Positions 15,978-29,584 of a DNA stretch of 38,887 nt are shown in pieces. The notes beneath the pieces are model-generated. The model did not search any database and was not told the DNA's origin. It worked only from the letters and a program-made list of their open reading frames with translations. The stretch spans positions 1 to 38,887 of the forward strand of contig JAJRQU010000082.1 in the NCBI GenBank assembly GCA_024280095.1, in the 5' to 3' direction. Every line of letters starts with the position of its first letter. The first letter of the stretch is position 1. The translations under genes were made by a program, and so were the position numbers. This stretch comes from Alphaproteobacteria bacterium (lineage in GTDB: Bacteria > Pseudomonadota > Alphaproteobacteria > Sphingomonadales > Emcibacteraceae).

Positions 15978-16883
15978 TCAGCGGCTTAATCTCTGACACA
16001 CATCATCCAGCTGCTCCAGCGTTTTATACTGGAGTCGCAGCTCACCGCTTTCATCGCTGTTAAACTCGATAGATACCGGAAACCCAAGCGCAAGAGACAG
16101 GTCATTCTCCAGAGCGAGCGTGTCTGCATCTTTATTCTGCTTAACCGGCTTTGTTCTATCCGCTTTTTTCATACGCGATCTAGCGCCTGCTTTGCCCTTT
16201 TTAGATATGGCCTCCACTTGACGGACGCTTAAGCCTTCTGTGACAATCCTTTTTGCCACCGCCTCAGCATCACCCACGGTAATCAAGGCGCGGGCGTGGC
16301 CCATGGAAAGTTTTCCCTGCATAACCAGTTGCTGAACAGAGTCAGGTAAAACGAGCATACGCAAAATATTGGCAATATGGCTGCGGCTTTTTCCCACGAT
16401 ATGGCCCAGCTGTTCCTGAGTATGATGAAATTCATCCATAAGCCGCTTATAACCCCCGGCTTCCTCAATAGGGCTTAGGTCATGGCGCTGTATATTTTCA
16501 ATAAGCGCAATTTCAAGCGCTTCGCCGTCGGTCATTTCGCGTATAATAACCGGAACACGGTGCAATTCTGCCGCTTGCGCCGCACGCCACCTCCGTTCTC
16601 CGGCGATTATTTCATATTCATCCAAATCCCCGCGCCGGCGCACCAAAAGGGGCTGCAATATACCGCGGTCTTTAATGGATTGTATGAGATCGGCGGATTT
16701 TTCTTCATCAAAAAAAAGTCTGGGCTGATATGGATTTGGCACCAGAAACTCAATGGGCAGATCCCTGTCACGTGAAGCGGGTGGCCCAGAAAGATCTGCA
16801 TATTCTTTGTCCGTAGAGACCAATAGTGCAGATAATCCTCGCCCCAGCCCCTTTGAGGATTTTGTTTTTTCTTTAGCTTTCAT
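15978..16883 (-). CDS. parB: Chromosome partitioning protein ParB (Spo0J family)
   Basis: 301 residues, the normal length for chromosomal ParB. An N-terminal basic segment with GLGRGLSALL (the ParA-contact type) leads to the CTP-binding box GERRWRA (95-101), the ENIQR motif (129-133) and a helix-turn-helix at about 155-178 (TQEQLGHIVGKSRSHIANIL). The C-terminal dimerisation domain ends in LQYKTLEQLDDVCQRLS. It binds parS and spreads as a CTP clamp to load condensin and engage ParA. Candidate parS sites occur at 18354 and 20412. It is the gene after parA, with a 65-bp gap. Confidence 0.97.
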   Translation of the reverse strand: MKAKEKTKSSKGLGRGLSALLVSTDKEYADLSGPPASRDRDLPIEFLVPNPYQPRLFFDEEKSADLIQSIKDRGILQPLLVRRRGDLDEYEIIAGERRWRAAQAAELHRVPVIIREMTDGEALEIALIENIQRHDLSPIEEAGGYKRLMDEFHHTQEQLGHIVGKSRSHIANILRMLVLPDSVQQLVMQGKLSMGHARALITVGDAEAVAKRIVTEGLSVRQVEAISKKGKAGARSRMKKADRTKPVKQNKDADTLALENDLSLALGFPVSIEFNSDESGELRLQYKTLEQLDDVCQRLSR

Positions 16884-16948
16884 CAGATGAAGATTCCTTG
16901 AAATATTGCCTAATACTATTGAATTTAAGCCCCAGTCGGCCCGAGTCT

Positions 16949-17764
16949 TTAAGCCGCCTTTAGGGTCTCTCGACGCAGCAGCTCCCGAGCAAGGCGTATA
17001 TAAGCCTGACTGCCACTACATTTAAAATCATAAAGCAGCACAGGCTTGCCATGAGACGGTGCCTCTGACACACGCACATTTCGCGGAATAACCGTTTTAA
17101 AAACCTGTTGTCCCAAATGGCCGCGTACATCATTGGCAACCTGGCTGGAAAGATTATTTCGGCCATCATACATGGTTAAAACCACCCCCGACATCTCTAG
17201 CCCGGGATTAAAGTTTACCTTCACCATTTCAATAGTTTTTAGCAAAAGACTTAGGCCTTCTAACGCAAAAAACTCGCATTGCAGGGGCACAATCACCGAA
17301 TGGGCCGCCGCCAGCGCGTTCAACGTCAAAAGGCTTAACGATGGCGGGCAATCAATCAGAATATAATCAAATTGATCTACAATAGGGTCCTGCAAAGCCT
17401 TTCTGAGACGATATGTCCTCTGCTCCATTGACACAAGCTCAAGTTCTGCTCCCGCAAGGTCAACCGTGGACGGCACCAAAAACAAGTTTGGCACAACAGA
17501 TTCCACAACAGCCTCCTGAAGGCTGATCTCGCCCAGCAAAATTTCGTAAATACTATTGTCCCGGTCATCTCGCGCGAGCCCAAGACCCGTGCTGGCATTT
17601 CCCTGAGGATCCATGTCAAGCAGCAACACCCGCTTTTGGACCGCAACCAATGCTGTCGCCAAATTAATAGTCGTCGTTGTTTTCCCTACACCGCCCTTTT
17701 GATTTGCGATTGCAATAATTTTGGTGGTTTTTCTGGGTGTGGATAACTTTGTGGATATACTCAT
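16949..17764 (-). CDS. parA: Chromosome partitioning ATPase ParA (Soj family)
   Basis: 271 residues with the deviant Walker A KGGVGKTT (23-30), a DMDPQGNAS block, LIDCPPSLSL and a C-terminal VRVSEAPSHGKP motif typical of chromosomal ParA/Soj. It drives ParB-parS segregation through nucleoid-bound ATPase gradients. An AGGAG lies 7 nt before the ATG, in the 10-bp gap after rsmG. The first coding bases contain two DnaA-box sequences, which is unusual (see the separate entry). Confidence 0.97.
   Translation of the reverse strand: MSISTKLSTPRKTTKIIAIANQKGGVGKTTTTINLATALVAVQKRVLLLDMDPQGNASTGLGLARDDRDNSIYEILLGEISLQEAVVESVVPNLFLVPSTVDLAGAELELVSMEQRTYRLRKALQDPIVDQFDYILIDCPPSLSLLTLNALAAAHSVIVPLQCEFFALEGLSLLLKTIEMVKVNFNPGLEMSGVVLTMYDGRNNLSSQVANDVRGHLGQQVFKTVIPRNVRVSEAPSHGKPVLLYDFKCSGSQAYIRLARELLRRETLKAA
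17738..17758 (-). promoter_or_regulatory. Pair of DnaA boxes in the first codons of parA
   Basis: On the coding (minus) strand the parA start reads ATGAGT, then ATATCCACA (17758-17750), AAG, then TTATCCACA (17746-17738). The second is a perfect consensus DnaA box and the first differs at its first base. The two lie 12 bp apart in the same orientation and encode ISTKLST. Binding would place DnaA at the translation start of parA. Confidence 0.55.
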
Positions 17765-17774
17765 CTACGTCTCC

Positions 17775-18425
17775 TTAATCTACATGGCCCAAAGCCTTAA
17801 TATGACTAACCTTTAACAGCATCCCCCTGTCCTGCGTAACGCTTGTGAACTTTTCTACCTCAAACGTCCAGTACCGCTGAGCCTCCGCAATTTCCTTTTC
17901 CGCGGTTTGGCCCTTTAAAAACAAACATATTGTATCTTCATGAATAAAATTCCGGCTAAGATCAAACAGTTTATTTAAGGGCGCACAAGCCCGGGAAATA
18001 ATATAATCCACATGAAACGGCCTTATATTTTCAATCCGCTCATTATGAATTACCGCATTACAATTGGTTTCCCTGATTACCTGCCGCATGAAGGCGCATT
18101 TTTTGTTGTTGCTTTCCACCATGTGAAATTCACCCAAGCCCAACATCGACAATAACAGACCCGGAAAGCCGGCACCACTGCCAATATCGAGAATCTTAGT
18201 TTTTTCCACATTTAGCCCGTTCAAATGCGCCTTAAGCTGAAAACTATCATAGAAATGCCGTGACCATAAGTCTGGCATGGTGGACTGACTAACCAGGTTT
18301 ATTTTCTTTTGCCATTTCGTCAATAGATTCGCATAAATACGAATATTGGCCATCGTTTCACGTGAAACACTGGTTTTTTGAGCGAATGTTTTTTCAGTAA
18401 GTATATCTGGCATAATATCTGGCAT
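17775..18425 (-). CDS. rsmG: 16S rRNA (guanine-527 N7)-methyltransferase RsmG (GidB)
   Basis: About 216 residues. The SAM-binding motif DIGSGAGFPGLLLSM and the WSRHFYDSFQL block identify RsmG, which methylates G527 of 16S rRNA; loss in other bacteria gives low-level streptomycin resistance. The frame extends to 18452 inside mnmG, but the ATG at 18425, just after the mnmG TAG, is the better start. Its first eight residues are MPDIMPDI, from an exact-phase 12-bp duplication. A third possible start is the second Met (18413). The codons for VSRETM contain a parS-like palindrome. Confidence 0.94.
   Translation of the reverse strand: MPDIMPDILTEKTFAQKTSVSRETMANIRIYANLLTKWQKKINLVSQSTMPDLWSRHFYDSFQLKAHLNGLNVEKTKILDIGSGAGFPGLLLSMLGLGEFHMVESNNKKCAFMRQVIRETNCNAVIHNERIENIRPFHVDYIISRACAPLNKLFDLSRNFIHEDTICLFLKGQTAEKEIAEAQRYWTFEVEKFTSVTQDRGMLLKVSHIKALGHVD
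18354..18369. promoter_or_regulatory. parS site inside rsmG
   Basis: CGTTTCACGTGAAACA: 15 of 16 bases match the widely conserved parS palindrome TGTTTCACGTGAAACA, and the central 14 bp are perfect. It lies within rsmG, 1.5 kb from parB. ParB recognition is established for this motif in many bacteria; function here is inferred. Confidence 0.85.
18402..18425 (-). repeat. 12-bp tandem duplication at the rsmG start
   Basis: ATGCCAGATATT followed directly by ATGCCAGATATA (11 of 12 identical). It encodes MPDI twice and duplicates the start codon. Confidence 0.85.
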
Positions 18426-18429
18426 GGCC

Positions 18430-20292
18430 CTATTTCTCTTTGCGTTTGACATATCTAAGCAAACTATTCAGCGCGGAAGGCGTCACACCGGATATCCGTG
18501 CAGCAGAACCTAATGTGGCCGGCTTTGCCCGCATGAGCTTTTCTTTAACTTCGTTAGATAAACCGCCAATATTCATATAGTCCAATGCGGCAGAAAGCGT
18601 CAGGTTTTCATCTTTCCTAAAGGCTAAAATATCCGCATCCTGACGGCCAAGATACGCGCTATAGGTGGCATCAATTTCGATTTGCTTCGCAATATTTTCT
18701 GGGATTTCTTTAAGTTCTGGCCAGATTTTTATGATGTCACTCAAAGATATTTTCGCATAAGACAGCAATGTTTTTGCCGAACGCCTCACCCCGTCCTGAT
18801 TGATCTTCAACCCATAAACCGCAGCTTTATTAGGCGTTATAACCAAACCCTCAATTAAATCATTGGCTTTAGTAAGCGCCGTTTCTTTTTCTTTATAGAC
18901 CCTTGCTCTTGAACCACCAACCAGACCAGCCTTAATACCAATGGGGGTAAGCCGCTGGTCGGCATTGTCAGAGCGCAGTTTCAGGCGGTATTCCGCACGG
19001 CTTGTAAACATCCGGTAAGGCTCTCGCGTACCCTTAGTGACCAAATCATCTATCATAACGCCAATATAACCATCGGCGCGGTCAAGGATAAAATCCTCGG
19101 AATCCGCTGCTGACCGCGCAGCATTGGTGCCCGCCATCAACCCTTGAGCCGCGGCCTCTTCATATCCAGTGGTGCCATTTATCTGACCCGCAAAATATAA
19201 TCCGGAGATTTTTTTGGTTTCCAGCGTCACCAATAATTCACGCGGATCAACAAAATCATACTCTATGGCATAGCCAAACTGTTTTATTTTCACATTTTCC
19301 AGCCCTGGAATTGACCTTATATAGTCATACTGAACATCTTCTGGTAAAGAGGTTGATATACCGTTTGGATATATAGTGTCATCATCAAGACCTTCTGGTT
19401 CCAGAAAAATTTGATGTGAGGCCTTGTCTGCAAAACGAACCACTTTATCCTCAATCGACGGGCAATAGCGCGGGCCCGCGCCCTCAATATTTCCACTGAA
19501 CATGGCTGACTTATTAAGGTTTTCCCGAATTATCGCATGTGTTTTTTCTGTCGTGTGGGTGATATGGCAAGCTATTTGAGGGACAGAAATCCTACTATTC
19601 ATAAATGAAAATGCTATAGGCGGATTATCTCCCGGCTGAACAGCACAAACAGAAAAATCCATGGTCGCTCCGTCCAGCCTTGCCGGCGTTCCTGTTTTTA
19701 ATCTACCCAACGCAAAACCGGCCCTCATCAATGTTTCGGACAATCCCAGTGAGGGGACATCACCCGCCCGGCCCGCCGGGATTTTCTTTTCTCCGATATG
19801 AATCATGCCGCGCAAAAATGTGCCTGTGGTTAATATCACCCGCCCACAAAGGATTTCTTCGCCGCAGGAGGTCACTATTCCAGATATTACATTTTCGCCG
19901 CCCCGATCCACAAGTATAAGGTCTTCAACCGCGCCTGCCTTAACCTCAAGGTTTGGCGTGTTTAATATCGCCTCCTGCATGGCTTTGCGGTAAAGATTTC
20001 GATCCGCTTGAGCGCGCGGCCCCTGAACGGCGGGCCCCTTGCGCTTGTTTAACATTCGAAACTGAATGCCAGACTGGTCGATAACCCGGCCCATCAACCC
20101 ATCCAAAGCATCAATTTCCCGCACAAGATGCCCCTTACCCAAGCCGCCAATGGCAGGGTTGCATGACATTTCGCCTATGGTTTCAAGCTTATGTGTGATC
20201 AACAGGGTTTTGGCCCCAATTCGCGCAGAAGCTGCTGCGGCTTCGCAGCCGGCATGCCCGCCGCCAATCACTATTACGTCATAATGAAACAT
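18430..20292 (-). CDS. mnmG: tRNA uridine-5-carboxymethylaminomethyl modification enzyme MnmG (GidA)
   Basis: 620 residues, full length. The FAD-binding [10 protein letters not shown] is at 10-19, followed by [23 protein letters not shown]. The conserved [10 protein letters not shown] holds a catalytic-type Cys, and a [17 protein letters not shown] segment is also present. With MnmE it forms the complex that installs cmnm5U/nm5U at the wobble position of tRNAs reading NNR codons. mnmE lies directly upstream on the same strand (197-bp gap with a parS), and rsmG begins about 4 bp after the TAG stop. This mnmE-mnmG-rsmG-parAB order is the classic near-origin block. Confidence 0.98.
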
Positions 20293-20411
20293 AAGATATA
20301 TACTCAGAAAATTATATTCTTCCCGCTCAAGTCCGGGACTTTAGGTTTATAGAACCATAAAGTCAAAGGCTGATTTCGAGGCCTTTAAAGGGGGTCATAC
20401 CGCCCTTGTAA

Positions 20412-20427
20412 TGTTTCACGTGAAACA
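20412..20427. promoter_or_regulatory. Perfect parS site
   Basis: TGTTTCACGTGAAACA, a perfect 16-bp palindrome identical to the consensus ParB-binding parS. It sits in the mnmE-mnmG gap, 3.5 kb from parB and 8 kb from the proposed origin. Confidence 0.93.
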
Positions 20428-20434
20428 CAAAAGG

Positions 20435-20449
20435 TTAACAAAACGTTAA
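20435..20449. promoter_or_regulatory. CtrA-type TTAA-N7-TTAA motif
   Basis: TTAACAAAACGTTAA fits the full Caulobacter CtrA site TTAA-N7-TTAA. GTTAAC occurs at both ends. It is 8 bp from the perfect parS and upstream of mnmG. No ctrA gene is in the window, so the binding protein is inferred from the class of organism. Confidence 0.4.
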
Positions 20450-20489
20450 CGCCCCGAAAGAACCGTTATTTCTTGCTCTATATTAGACA

Positions 20490-21863
20490 TCACTTACCCA
20501 CACAAAACTCGGAAAAGATGGCTCCCAAAACCTCTTCCACATCCACACGGCCCATAATGCTGCCCAGACTGCGGGCCGCCATTCTAAGGTCCTCTGCTAA
20601 AAGCGCGACTTCCTTGTGAGGAGAATCGGCAAACCTGTGCAGATGCTCTACAGAATCACTTAAAGCTTCGCGGTGCCGAATCCGCGTTAGATTTGGCGTA
20701 TCCGTAAGCTCCATCCGTTTTTCTACTTCTGCCGACAGCTCTTCAAGGAATTCCCCCAGACCTTTTTCATATTTTGCCGAGATTGGCAAGATGGTTATGT
20801 TGGGAAACGACTGGTTTAACAAAGTCTCATCTGGCCCGTTATTTTGTAACTCTCTGGCTTGATCCGACTTGTTTAATAGAATAATCGTATTCTTGTCTAT
20901 TTGGCCCCTTAATCTTTCTGGAATTTCCGGCCAGCCTGCGGCGCTCACCAATATAATTTTTATATCTGCTGACTTTGCCCGCTCTTCGGCCCGACGGATG
21001 CCTTCTATTTCTATGACATCCCCGCTGTCCCTTATGCCTGCCGTATCTGCAATGGTTACGGGAAAGCCGTTGATATCAAGATGCACCTCAAGAATGTCTC
21101 GCGTAGTGCCCGCAATATCCGAAACAATGGCCACATCACGCTTAGACAAAAAGTTCAGCAAAGTAGATTTGCCGATATTCGGCTCCCCCAATATTACAAC
21201 CTGCAAGCCGTCTCTTATTCTTTCACCTTTAAAGCCGTCACCTATATGCTGTTCAATTTTATGGGTCAATGCCTTAACCATTGGCCCAACCTGGTCGGTT
21301 ACGTCACTGGGGATTTCTTCGTCTGCAAAATCTATGTCGGCCTCAAGATAGGCCATGGCGGATATTATTTCACTGCGCCAACCCTCATATAAATCCGCAA
21401 GATGGCCGTCCATAAGCCGCAGGGCCTGCCGTCTTTGGGCTTCGGTTTCGGCATTGATCAGGTCCGCCAGCCCCTCTGCTGCGGTTAAGTCCATCTTACC
21501 ATTATCAAATGCCCGGCGCGTAAACTCGCCCGGCTGCGCGCTTCTTAAGCCAGATAATTTAGACAATGCCACCAAAAAACCCGTGATGACAGCCCGTCCG
21601 CCGTGAATATGAAACTCTGCCACATCTTCGCCCGTAAAGCTTTTCGGTCCGGGAAAATATAACAACAACCCCCGGTCAAGCCGCACGCCTGTCTCTGGCT
21701 CCATAAACCAGCAAAGCTGTGCTTCACGTGGAACAGGCAAAGTCGTTTTTTGGGTAAGCTTTAATATTGCCGCGCCCACCTTTGGGCCGGACAATCGAAT
21801 AACCGAAACCCCCGCTCTGCCCTTGCCGCTGGATAAAGCATATATGGTATCTGCGTATGGCAC
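20490..21863 (-). CDS. mnmE: tRNA modification GTPase MnmE (TrmE)
   Basis: 457 residues. The N-terminal tetrahydrofolate-binding domain contains SGPKVG and GEFTRRAFDNGKMDLTAAEGLADL. The inserted GTPase domain has G1 GEPNIGKS (226-233), TTRD (253-256), G3 DTAG (273-276) and G4 NKSD (331-334). The C-terminal FCVGK supplies the conserved catalytic Cys of the CxGK tail. It partners MnmG in wobble-uridine modification. The start codon is GTG at 21863, with AGGA 6 nt upstream. A degenerate parS-like sequence lies in the coding region at 21720-21735. Confidence 0.97.
   Translation of the reverse strand: MPYADTIYALSSGKGRAGVSVIRLSGPKVGAAILKLTQKTTLPVPREAQLCWFMEPETGVRLDRGLLLYFPGPKSFTGEDVAEFHIHGGRAVITGFLVALSKLSGLRSAQPGEFTRRAFDNGKMDLTAAEGLADLINAETEAQRRQALRLMDGHLADLYEGWRSEIISAMAYLEADIDFADEEIPSDVTDQVGPMVKALTHKIEQHIGDGFKGERIRDGLQVVILGEPNIGKSTLLNFLSKRDVAIVSDIAGTTRDILEVHLDINGFPVTIADTAGIRDSGDVIEIEGIRRAEERAKSADIKIILVSAAGWPEIPERLRGQIDKNTIILLNKSDQARELQNNGPDETLLNQSFPNITILPISAKYEKGLGEFLEELSAEVEKRMELTDTPNLTRIRHREALSDSVEHLHRFADSPHKEVALLAEDLRMAARSLGSIMGRVDVEEVLGAIFSEFCVGK
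21720..21735. promoter_or_regulatory. Degenerate parS-like site inside mnmE
   Basis: TGCTTCACGTGGAACA keeps the CACGTG core and the TG/CA ends but differs from TGTTCCACGTGGAACA at two positions. It could be a weak third ParB site. Confidence 0.45.
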
Positions 21864-27282: not shown

Positions 27283-28320
27283 CTATCTTTTATAGTCCCG
27301 CAATATTTCAGATACCCGCGCGACATTTTCCGGCGGTGTTTGCGGAACTATGCCATGACCAAGATTAAATATAAAGGGTCCTTTGCCAAGACAATCCAGA
27401 ATCTCCTTCACGCGGTTTTCCATCATTTCACCGCCTGCAACCAATAATAAGGGGTCTAAATTACCCTGTACAGGACATAAAGGCTGTATATGATCCCGTA
27501 CCCACTCTAATGGCATCGTTGTGTCTATAGAGACCGCAGAGATGCCCGTAGCGCGAATATATTCAGGATAGCGGCACCCTGCCCCCTTGGGAAACCCAAT
27601 GATTGGAATATCTGGATAAATCGCCCGAATATTCCGAACAATTTTTTTGACCGGTTCTATGGCCCATTTTCGAAATTGATCATCAGGCAAATTTCCGGCC
27701 CAAGTATCAAATAATTGAATAACTTCGGCACCTTGCTTGATTTGACGACATAAATATTCAGATGTGGAAACGATCAATAAATCAATAAGCGTTTGAAAAG
27801 CGGCCTCATCCTGATAGGCCATGGCTCTTGTTGCCGCCTGATCTGTGGATCCATGCCCTGCAACCATATAAGTTGCTACTGTCCAGGGCGCGCCAGCAAA
27901 ACCAATTAATGTGGTTGTTTCTGGAATTTCCTTATGTAATCGCTTAACCGTTTCATATACAGGTGCCAGATGTTTATGAAAGCCTTCCATGCCAAGCCCA
28001 TTTATTTTATTGGCTGTGTCTACAGGAGTAAGAACAGGCCCTTCGCCCTGTCTGAATTCAAGATGTTGACCCAAAGCATGAGGCACAACCAGAATATCCG
28101 AGAAAAGAATGGCCGCGTCCATTTGGTATCTGCGAAGAGGTTGGAGGGTTACTTCTACGGCAAAATCAGGGGCGTAACAAAGATCCAGAAAGGACCCCGC
28201 AGTTTTGCGTTTTTCCATATATTCTGGTAAATATCTTCCTGCTTGGCGCATATACCAAAAGGGAATTTTATCTGTAACCTCACCATTTAAAGTCTGGAGA
28301 AAAAGTTTATTATTTTTCAT
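27283..28320 (-). CDS. hemE: Uroporphyrinogen decarboxylase HemE
   Basis: 345 residues. It decarboxylates uroporphyrinogen III to coproporphyrinogen III. Signature 1 RQAGRYLPEY is at 25-34 and signature 2 is GFAGAPWTVATYMVAG; the Asp in the FSDILV region binds substrate. It is the first gene of the leftward haem unit and directly abuts the proposed replication origin, as hemE does in Caulobacter. Confidence 0.98.
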   Translation of the reverse strand: MKNNKLFLQTLNGEVTDKIPFWYMRQAGRYLPEYMEKRKTAGSFLDLCYAPDFAVEVTLQPLRRYQMDAAILFSDILVVPHALGQHLEFRQGEGPVLTPVDTANKINGLGMEGFHKHLAPVYETVKRLHKEIPETTTLIGFAGAPWTVATYMVAGHGSTDQAATRAMAYQDEAAFQTLIDLLIVSTSEYLCRQIKQGAEVIQLFDTWAGNLPDDQFRKWAIEPVKKIVRNIRAIYPDIPIIGFPKGAGCRYPEYIRATGISAVSIDTTMPLEWVRDHIQPLCPVQGNLDPLLLVAGGEMMENRVKEILDCLGKGPFIFNLGHGIVPQTPPENVARVSEILRDYKR

Positions 28321-28735
28321 ATATTTTTCGATCGTCGTTATACACTTAAGAATAAACTACTATCTTATATTTTTATAAATATATAAATAGTGGTTGTAGT
28401 GGGTGCCTGTGAATAAAGAGAATTAAAAGTTACCCCCAAAACAATTGACAGAACAGTCTTAAAAAAACATTTTTTATCACATAGCGGATTTGGCAGAATA
28501 AGTCTATGGATAAGCGCAGGAAGGCAAGAGCTTTAAAACTGTGAATATCGGGGATAGTTTTTATATTGACAGGAGATAAAAAAACCACATTCTGATTCCC
28601 ACAGACCCTAAAAAAAGTTATCCATAAAAGGATAATAATTGTATACTAAATGAAAGGGGTGCATAATTTTACGTCTTTTATAATATAAGGCCAGTTATCC
28701 CCGTAATTAAGGCCAAAACAGCAATAGGGTTGATA
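28321..28735. other. Putative chromosomal replication origin (oriC) between hemE and ppsR
   Basis: 415 bp without a gene between divergent hemE and ppsR, the position of the experimentally defined origin in Caulobacter. It contains DnaA-box-like nonamers: TGTGAATAA at 28408-28416 (a perfect TTWTNCACA match, reverse); TTTATCACA at 28473-28481; TATGGATAA at 28505-28513 (reverse); TGTGAATAT at 28540-28548 (reverse); TTATCCATA at 28618-28626; and TTATCCCCG at 28695-28703. An almost pure AT tract at 28361-28390 could be the unwinding element. One GANTC (CcrM-type) site is at 28594. A TATAAT at 28679-28684 may serve ppsR. No TTAA-N7-TTAA site is seen here. Confidence 0.7.
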
Positions 28736-29584
28736 ATGAAAGAGGTTTATCTTCATCTGGTATCTGATGCAACAGGAGATACCCTTGAACAGGTTGCCAA
28801 GGCGGCTTTAGCGCAATTTCCCGAGATAAAAGCCAAAAAACATTATTGGCCAATGGTCAGAACCGCCCGTCATATGGGACGGCTTATTCCGGAATTTAAA
28901 GAAAAGCCGGGCATTGTGATGTTTACATTGGTCAATAGTGATATTGAACAGGTTTTGATTGAGGCATGTGAAAAAAACCATTGGCCCTATATTTCAGTAT
29001 TACACAGTATAATTCGGGAATTAGGTCATCATCTGGGTCAAAAAAGTATCGCGCGTCCCGGCCTTCAACATAAAATGAATGATGAATATTTTGCACGAAT
29101 AGATGCCATGCAATACACCCTGATGCATGATGATGGCCAGAATCCGGAAGGTATAAAATCAGCAGATATTGTTTTACTTGGGGTATCTCGAACCTCTAAA
29201 ACACCCACAAGCATCTATCTGGCAAATAAAGGAATGAAAACGGCGAATATTCCCATTGTGCCCGATCAGGCATTACCGCGCGAACTGGATGACTTGGGCG
29301 GTAAATTTGTTGTGGGCCTGATTAACAGTGTGGATCGGCTGGTTCAAATCAGGCGCAATCGTTTGTTATCCTTAAAAGAAGAAAAAGAAACCACTTATGT
29401 CAATGAAGAAGCCATAAAAAAAGAAGTTCAGCTGGCCCGGCGGCTTTTTTCCGGGCGCGGCTGGCCCGTCATTGATGTGACCCGAAGATCCATCGAAGAA
29501 ACAGCGGGCGCTATTATGAATTTGAAATATAAATTTGATGATGAAAAAGAAAAAAGAAATGTTGCTGATTCTGGTATCAACTAA
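28736..29584 (+). CDS. ppsR: PPSR-type pyruvate,phosphate/water dikinase regulatory kinase-phosphorylase (DUF299)
   Basis: 282 residues. N-terminal VYLHLVSDATGDTLEQVAKA is the family hallmark. A HDDG motif (131-134) and a P-loop-like GVSRTSKT (149-156) follow. The family phosphorylates and dephosphorylates PEP synthase or pyruvate phosphate dikinase, switching gluconeogenic flux. Which target exists here cannot be seen. The ATG at 28736 has AGGG 6 nt upstream; the frame opens two codons earlier at TTG. Its promoter would lie in the proposed origin, and the gene reads away from it. Confidence 0.94.
   Translation: MKEVYLHLVSDATGDTLEQVAKAALAQFPEIKAKKHYWPMVRTARHMGRLIPEFKEKPGIVMFTLVNSDIEQVLIEACEKNHWPYISVLHSIIRELGHHLGQKSIARPGLQHKMNDEYFARIDAMQYTLMHDDGQNPEGIKSADIVLLGVSRTSKTPTSIYLANKGMKTANIPIVPDQALPRELDDLGGKFVVGLINSVDRLVQIRRNRLLSLKEEKETTYVNEEAIKKEVQLARRLFSGRGWPVIDVTRRSIEETAGAIMNLKYKFDDEKEKRNVADSGIN

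Follow-up and report, generated by a model that had tools for sequence, protein, structure and literature searches.

The window considered here, a stretch of 38,887 nucleotides of alphaproteobacterial DNA, contains a gap of 415 bp between hemE and ppsR. It raises the question whether this gap is the chromosomal replication origin (oriC) of the organism and by what sequence elements its strands might be opened. A preliminary description of the sequence had proposed a candidate origin in this gene-free interval, with ppsR, aroE, coaE and dnaQ to its right, and had likened the setting to that of the known Caulobacter origin. NCBIfam matches agree with that gene order, add secB on the right and put hemH, hemJ and rho to the left of the gap, which is free of genes as described; ppsR starts at 28730 or 28736 on the forward strand. 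The flanking pair is also the one known from Caulobacter; ppsR goes by the name DUF299/COG1806 in PMC1914354. The GC content of the gap is 31.8%, against 46.1% for the window, and ppsR is its neighbour in 37 of the 39 stretches compared from the same order and in 33 of the 36 from the class.

Two side observations concern the flanks. In one metagenome-assembled relative (G004), ppsR appears as two partial pieces near contig ends, with 92% and 82% identity to the query, suggestive of a bin that mixes strains. To the left of the gap, an exact copy of the parS-like motif TGTTTCACGTGAAACA is accompanied by further copies at 18354 (one mismatch) and 21720 (two mismatches). These three sites (18354, 20412 and 21720) lie amid ORFs of the interval 15978-21863 that presumably represent parB, parA, rsmG, mnmG and mnmE, an assignment that uses their sizes and the customary gene order only.

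The GC skew of the window is about -0.12 before the gap and +0.08 after it. It keeps between -0.11 and -0.16 along the 18 kb on the left and between +0.07 and +0.11 along the 8 kb on the right, and drops to about 0 for the final 3 kb. A change of sign at this place could have another cause. The gap might be a mere divergent promoter region that contains DnaA boxes by chance, with the origin located elsewhere, for example at dnaA, and the divergent genes that flank it would alone be enough to shift the local skew. The source genome, a 2.63-Mb draft in 221 contigs that is 85% complete, allows no whole-chromosome curve, and chromosome-wide skew was instead sampled in 40 stretches, each of 20 kb and one of them containing 2,500 masked bases, from a closed genome of the same genus, G001 (4,189,011 bp). 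From position 1 to 1.8 Mb, the sampled stretches of this congener have positive skew; those between 1.89 Mb and 4.01 Mb have negative skew. The cumulative skew of G001 has a maximum near 1.8-1.9 Mb and is lowest at the stretch that carries the homologous gap, and there at the 1-kb bin of the gap itself. The dnaA gene of G001 (55-1437) lies some 90 kb away from the gap, and the skew between the two is already positive (+0.127 at 4.15 Mb), which places the cumulative minimum at the homologous gap and not at dnaA. In G019, a second closed genome of the family, the skew changes sign at the same gap; in a third, G018, the gap reaches the end of the record, and its left side, the only one seen, has negative skew. 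Against the sampled skew minimum, the positive skew on the way to dnaA and the recurrence of the box and AT tract across the class, the notion of a mere promoter region is hardly credible.

The gap is thus very probably oriC. The origin call of the preliminary description was correct, being supported by the skew, for which that description had predicted a cumulative minimum at the gap (found in the sampled congener, together with the local flip in the window), and by the conservation of the DnaA boxes. An origin at this place is in itself ordinary and expected, since the location is already known for the class from Caulobacter and Rickettsia. The interest of the locus shifts to what appears, from a sequence pattern combined with a residue change in DnaA, to be a class-wide variant of the DnaA-trio.

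When compared with TTATCCACA, the gap is found to contain three nonamers with one mismatch (28408 and 28505 on the reverse strand and 28618 on the forward strand) and eight with at most two, lying in both orientations. The corresponding means in dinucleotide shuffles are 0.15 and 1.76, and none of 2000 shuffles reached either observed count. The count of eight bears out the earlier figure of at least six box-like nonamers in both orientations, but the statement that they are mostly one base from the consensus applies to only three of the eight. The nonamer said to fit the degenerate consensus in full is TGTGAATAA at 28408-28416, which does fit TTWTNCACA; a single match of this kind is unremarkable, as it is seen in 4.4% of shuffles.

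Conservation of the boxes in relatives, another check put forward in the preliminary description, was examined in 13 genus gaps that align end to end, that of the window among them, with up to two mismatches allowed per box. Seven of the eight nonamers are kept in 10-13 of these 13 gaps (Table 1), and a nonamer at 28658 is kept in just 4. The 28540 nonamer is within two mismatches of TTATCCACA in 10 of the 13 gaps, and its neighbour at 28549 is within two of TTATCCCCA in 11 and of TTATCCACA in 7. The 28430 box reads TTATCCCCA in three genus gaps, while the 28695 box reads TTATCCCCA in seven and TTATCCCCG in six; the mean identity around the latter (0.92) is the highest among the stretches measured. 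At the place equivalent to 28338, GTTATNCAC occurs in the 12 aligned gaps of another genus of the family (g5). A separate observation is that the island ATCACATAGCGG...AATAAGTCTATGGATAAG (28476-28513), which has a DnaA box at its end only, is nearly invariant in the genus and was not seen in the aligned gaps of other genera of the family.

Table 1. Coordinates of features in and around the hemE-ppsR gap (positions in the window; genus gaps, the 13 aligned gaps of the genus)
Feature	Position	Strand	Evidence or remark
parS-like site, exact TGTTTCACGTGAAACA	20412..20427		Motif match; 7.9 kb left of gap
hemE (uroporphyrinogen decarboxylase), left boundary	27283..28320	-	NCBIfam TIGR01464, E 1.4e-119
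Origin region (very probable), hemE-ppsR gap	28321..28735		Conserved, noncoding; 31.8% GC
DnaA-box-like TTATACACT	28338..28346	+	Left of AT tract and pointing at it; <=2 mismatches in 11/13 genus gaps
CTACTA at left end of AT tract, two trios of the other strand	28357..28362	-	10/13 genus gaps; role doubtful
A/T-only tract, 25 bp	28365..28389		Likely first DNA to melt (DUE); overlaps array by two bases
Putative trio array TAG TGG TTG TAG TGG (3'-GGT GAT GTT GGT GAT-5')	28388..28402	+	Five GNT trios in a row; 5 nt to box
Spacer GTGCC	28403..28407	+	Between array and box
DnaA box TTATTCACA (TGTGAATAA on + strand), array anchor	28408..28416	-	<=2 mismatches in 10/13 genus gaps
DnaA-box-like TTACCCCCA	28430..28438	+	<=2 mismatches to TTATCCCCA in 13/13 genus gaps, to TTATCCACA in 12/13
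DnaA box TTATCCATA	28505..28513	-	13/13 genus gaps; end of island ATCACATAGCGG...AATAAGTCTATGGATAAG
Two adjoining box-like nonamers ATATTCACA, CTATCCCCG	28540..28557	-	
DnaA box TTATCCATA	28618..28626	+	13/13 genus gaps; also within two of TTATCCCCA in 13/13
Box TTATCCCCG	28695..28703	+	13/13 genus gaps; also within two of TTATCCCCA in 13/13
ppsR (PEP synthetase regulator), right boundary	28730..29584	+	NCBIfam NF003742, E 5.5e-96

The core of the origin, which the preliminary description missed, would be an array of trios next to the box at 28408. That description had noted an AT-only tract of 30 bp; the uninterrupted A/T run measures 25 bp, is separated from the box by 18 bp, and has counterparts at the same place in the gaps of the family, order and class. 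The succession of A/T tract, TAG TGG TTG TAG TGG, GTGCC and TGTGAATAA resembles, as far as sequence can tell, the layout of a DnaA-trio basal unwinding system (BUS), and the order of tract, array, spacer and box recurs in hemE-side gaps of the family, order and class, including the CC beside the box (C at a frequency of 0.71 at position -2 and 0.76 at -1, class-wide). Of the features by which a canonical BUS is recognised, the 28408 position has a box with one mismatch (up to two being allowed) and, in the direction of the AT tract, GNT trios after a spacer of 5 nt (0-16 bp being allowed). A run of at least three consecutive 3'-NAN-5' trios is absent at this box, where A is the middle base in two of the five trios and the longest NAN run within 16 nt is 1; runs of 3 and 4 NAN trios stand farther from the A/T tract, by the boxes at 28505 and 28618. 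All 13 genus gaps have a GNT run of at least three beside the array box, and a NAN run of that length lies within 16 nt of it in 5 of the 13.

We also observed AAGAATCTT, which bears GANTC (the CcrM site), in the melting tract of some class gaps (e.g., L153 of G244, L150 of G144 and L171 of G223). GANTC is weakly over-represented in this tract, where 11 of the 65 scored gaps have it and shuffles give 4.5, and is absent from the A/T tract of the window; its methylation could affect melting.

The comparison across the class was based on 80 gaps, namely one for each of the 5 genera of the family, 39 stretches from the order and 36 from the class. The order set comprises 39 of 40 stretches chosen among the order's hemE matches (one ended at a contig end), and the class set is mostly the best of 110 hemE matches in 142 genomes. 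For five order or class gaps lacking a ppsR match, the 600 nt beside hemE were taken instead, and the family gap of G018 runs off its record. Seven extra class gaps were viewed by eye and left out of all counts; ppsR was matched in five of these, in one case about 1.1 kb away. An initial array statistic was discarded as biased, since it came from a finder that rewarded words of the TAGT, TTGT and GTAG type; this finder missed the arrays of the genus members G001 and G011 and found none in 3 of the 80 gaps. It was replaced by anchors defined by AT content and a box only, ignoring the array, which allowed 65 of the 80 gaps to be scored; the other 15 failed the thresholds of AT content (at least 0.7) or box (at most two mismatches).

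In these 65 gaps, in-phase T.G averages 2.55, as compared with 1.61 in mononucleotide and 1.58 in dinucleotide shuffles (z about 11), and runs of T.G beside the anchor reach z values of 14-16 against shuffles. Over the 21 nt that precede the anchor box, the pattern.A. is not enriched (z -1.4 and -0.3). Control zones drawn by the same rule from non-origin parts of G001 (242 zones, whose base composition is unlike that of the gaps) have a mean of 0.78, and 20,000 resamples of 65 such zones never reached 2.55; relative to their own shuffles, the ratio is 0.89 for the control zones and 1.60 for the gaps. When bases are tabulated by distance from the box (62 of the 80 gaps), one phase has G at 0.52, the next has T at 0.51, and the third, the middle of the trio, has A at 0.29, G at 0.31, T at 0.37 and C at 0.03. 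The middle A is mildly preferred (0.29 against 0.17-0.20) and reaches 0.42 at -10. Uninterrupted GNT runs of at least three beside a box with no more than two mismatches are found in 25 of the 80 gaps, against 0.4 in shuffles, and are missing from the other 55; by the same box rule, they are missing from 2 of the 13 genus gaps as well. From the location, the skew of the congener, the conservation and the periodic array phased to its box, all of them observed, we put the probability that the gap is oriC with a box-phased unwinding array at TGTGAATAA at roughly 0.85, a figure that leaves aside how the trios might be read.

A possible clue to the reading of the trios is found in DnaA. In B. subtilis, Asn187 bonds to the middle A, and Arg202 and Glu228 contact the G; replacement of the middle A by G or T slows strand separation and lowers initiation, while C is tolerated, and Asn187 is not universal even among species with a working BUS (all from PMC10721633). 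The DnaA of the present genome, aligned to B. subtilis chain 8btg_A, has Tyr at 187, Lys at 202 and Glu at 228. Among 48 alphaproteobacterial DnaA proteins, from hand-picked genomes, position 187 is occupied by Tyr in 33, Phe in 7, Val in 3, His in 2, Ser in 2 and Trp in 1 (an aromatic residue in 41 of 48) and by Asn in none. The 27 DnaA proteins from other Pseudomonadota, which are best-scoring matches and not a random sample, have Ala (11), Gln (9), Thr (4), Ser (2) or Asn (1) at this position. Asn187 is therefore missing in 26 of 27 proteins beyond the class too, so that its loss alone does not predict the array, but Tyr, Phe or Trp at 187 is confined to the Alphaproteobacteria in this sample of 48 plus 27. 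In one family (f6), three of the four DnaA proteins examined have Val at 187 and one has Phe, and a GNT run of 3 is found in none of 12 gaps, as compared with 25 of 68 elsewhere (Fisher p 0.014, uncorrected for descent).

These observations can be assembled into a tentative mechanism. DnaA would load on boxes across the gap, several of which are similar to TTATCCCCA, and from TGTGAATAA at 28408 it would extend leftward on the forward strand over TAG-TGG-TTG-TAG-TGG, with about one protomer for every three bases; the adjoining 25-bp A/T tract would then melt and permit the loading of helicase. We infer that DnaA binds the array as a single strand. Each trio would be read mainly through its G, by Lys at 202 and Glu228, and the aromatic residue in place of Asn187 would accept almost any middle base because it would stack on any of them. 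On this proposal, the alphaproteobacterial trio might be a relaxed 3'-GNT-5', with its ends kept and its middle nearly free, instead of 3'-NAN-5', a proposal we put forward with less than even confidence. It would invert the published rule, by which the end bases of the trio are variable and the middle must be A (PMC6727663). A limited literature search turned up no account of a relaxed trio in the Alphaproteobacteria.

The same gaps might instead open through a canonical module in which DnaA reads the middle A of 3'-NAN-5', the G/T periodicity being a by-product of a favoured 3'-GAT-5' or the working module lying at another box of the gap. This is a possibility that we regard as real but somewhat doubtful. 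NAN runs of at least three are found beside any box of the gap in 49 of the 80 gaps, as compared with 21.1 in shuffles, and in the whole gaps of the genus in 13 of 13, against 7.0 (runs of 4: 13 against 3.7). The mild enrichment of middle A noted above also fits a canonical reading, as does the report that 3'-GAT-5' is the most frequent trio (PMC8287927). However, runs of at least three GAT trios occur in just 1 of the 80 gaps,.A. is unenriched where T.G is periodic, the window array itself is poor in NAN, and Asn187 is present in none of the 48 alphaproteobacterial proteins.

A different arrangement is suggested by the left end of the A/T tract, where the inverted trios CTACTA (28357-28362) and the left box TTATACACT might form a twin module, with DnaA coating both strands and one helicase being loaded on each. 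In work on Bacillus, the loading of the second helicase is called unclear (PMC10201434). CTACTA is present in 10 and an inward-pointing left box in 11 of the 13 genus gaps, and the GTTATNCAC box and TAC recur in the family genus g5, but class-wide, over 59 gaps, the left side is not periodic when judged by dinucleotide shuffles (TAG z 1.5; T.G z 1.0), and the TAG z of 4.4 holds against mononucleotide shuffles only. A twin module was accordingly rejected for the class and is left as a curiosity of the genus and family; we consider it improbable.

The relaxed 3'-GNT-5' trio would matter beyond this locus. The trio-based BUS has been proposed as an ancestral way of opening bacterial origins, and its middle-A rule was derived in Bacillus. 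If the relaxed trio is real, the BUS model would extend to a large class of bacteria, and position 187 would offer a way to test, by changing one residue, how single-stranded DNA is read by DnaA.

Like Cori of Caulobacter crescentus and the origin of Rickettsia, the gap has hemE and COG1806 flanks, an AT-rich region and several DnaA boxes; it differs from Cori, for which five CtrA sites and one IHF site are described (PMC1914354), in having neither kind of site. The likeness to Caulobacter drawn in the preliminary description thus holds for place and fails for regulator sites. The window gap has no exact CtrA motif TTAA-N7-TTAA on either strand and, on the forward strand, none in which a single A is mismatched; 12 of the 13 genus gaps, as scanned on the forward strand, lack the motif, G003 having one match with a mismatch. 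No copy of the IHF consensus WATCARNNNNTTR was found in the 13 genus gaps. A 2011 paper on Cori reportedly describes weak DnaA sites there.

The B. subtilis BUS presents the same order of AT tract, 3-nt repeats, short spacer and DnaA box, and the orientation of the array agrees with the 3'-to-5' trio notation of the BUS papers and, presumably, with the B. subtilis sequence. The two differ in that G and T recur here while the middle base is not fixed as A, and in that position 187 of DnaA is Tyr here and Asn in B. subtilis. A BUS, consisting of a box, a short spacer and 3-nt DnaA-trios, has been predicted in 1755 of 2070 species (PMC8287927). At E. coli R1, in contrast to the window array, there is no GNT run (the longest is 1) and there are three NAN trios. 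Position 187 of E. coli DnaA is presumably Gln. In the DUE-R1-R5M region of E. coli oriC (box names as in PMC6727663), the succession of CTGCCC, TGTGGATAA and CAAGGATCC is laid out, by eye, like the GATGCC, TGTGGATAA and CGGGGATnn of the class gaps, a likeness that hints at an old, shared pair of boxes beside the DUE.
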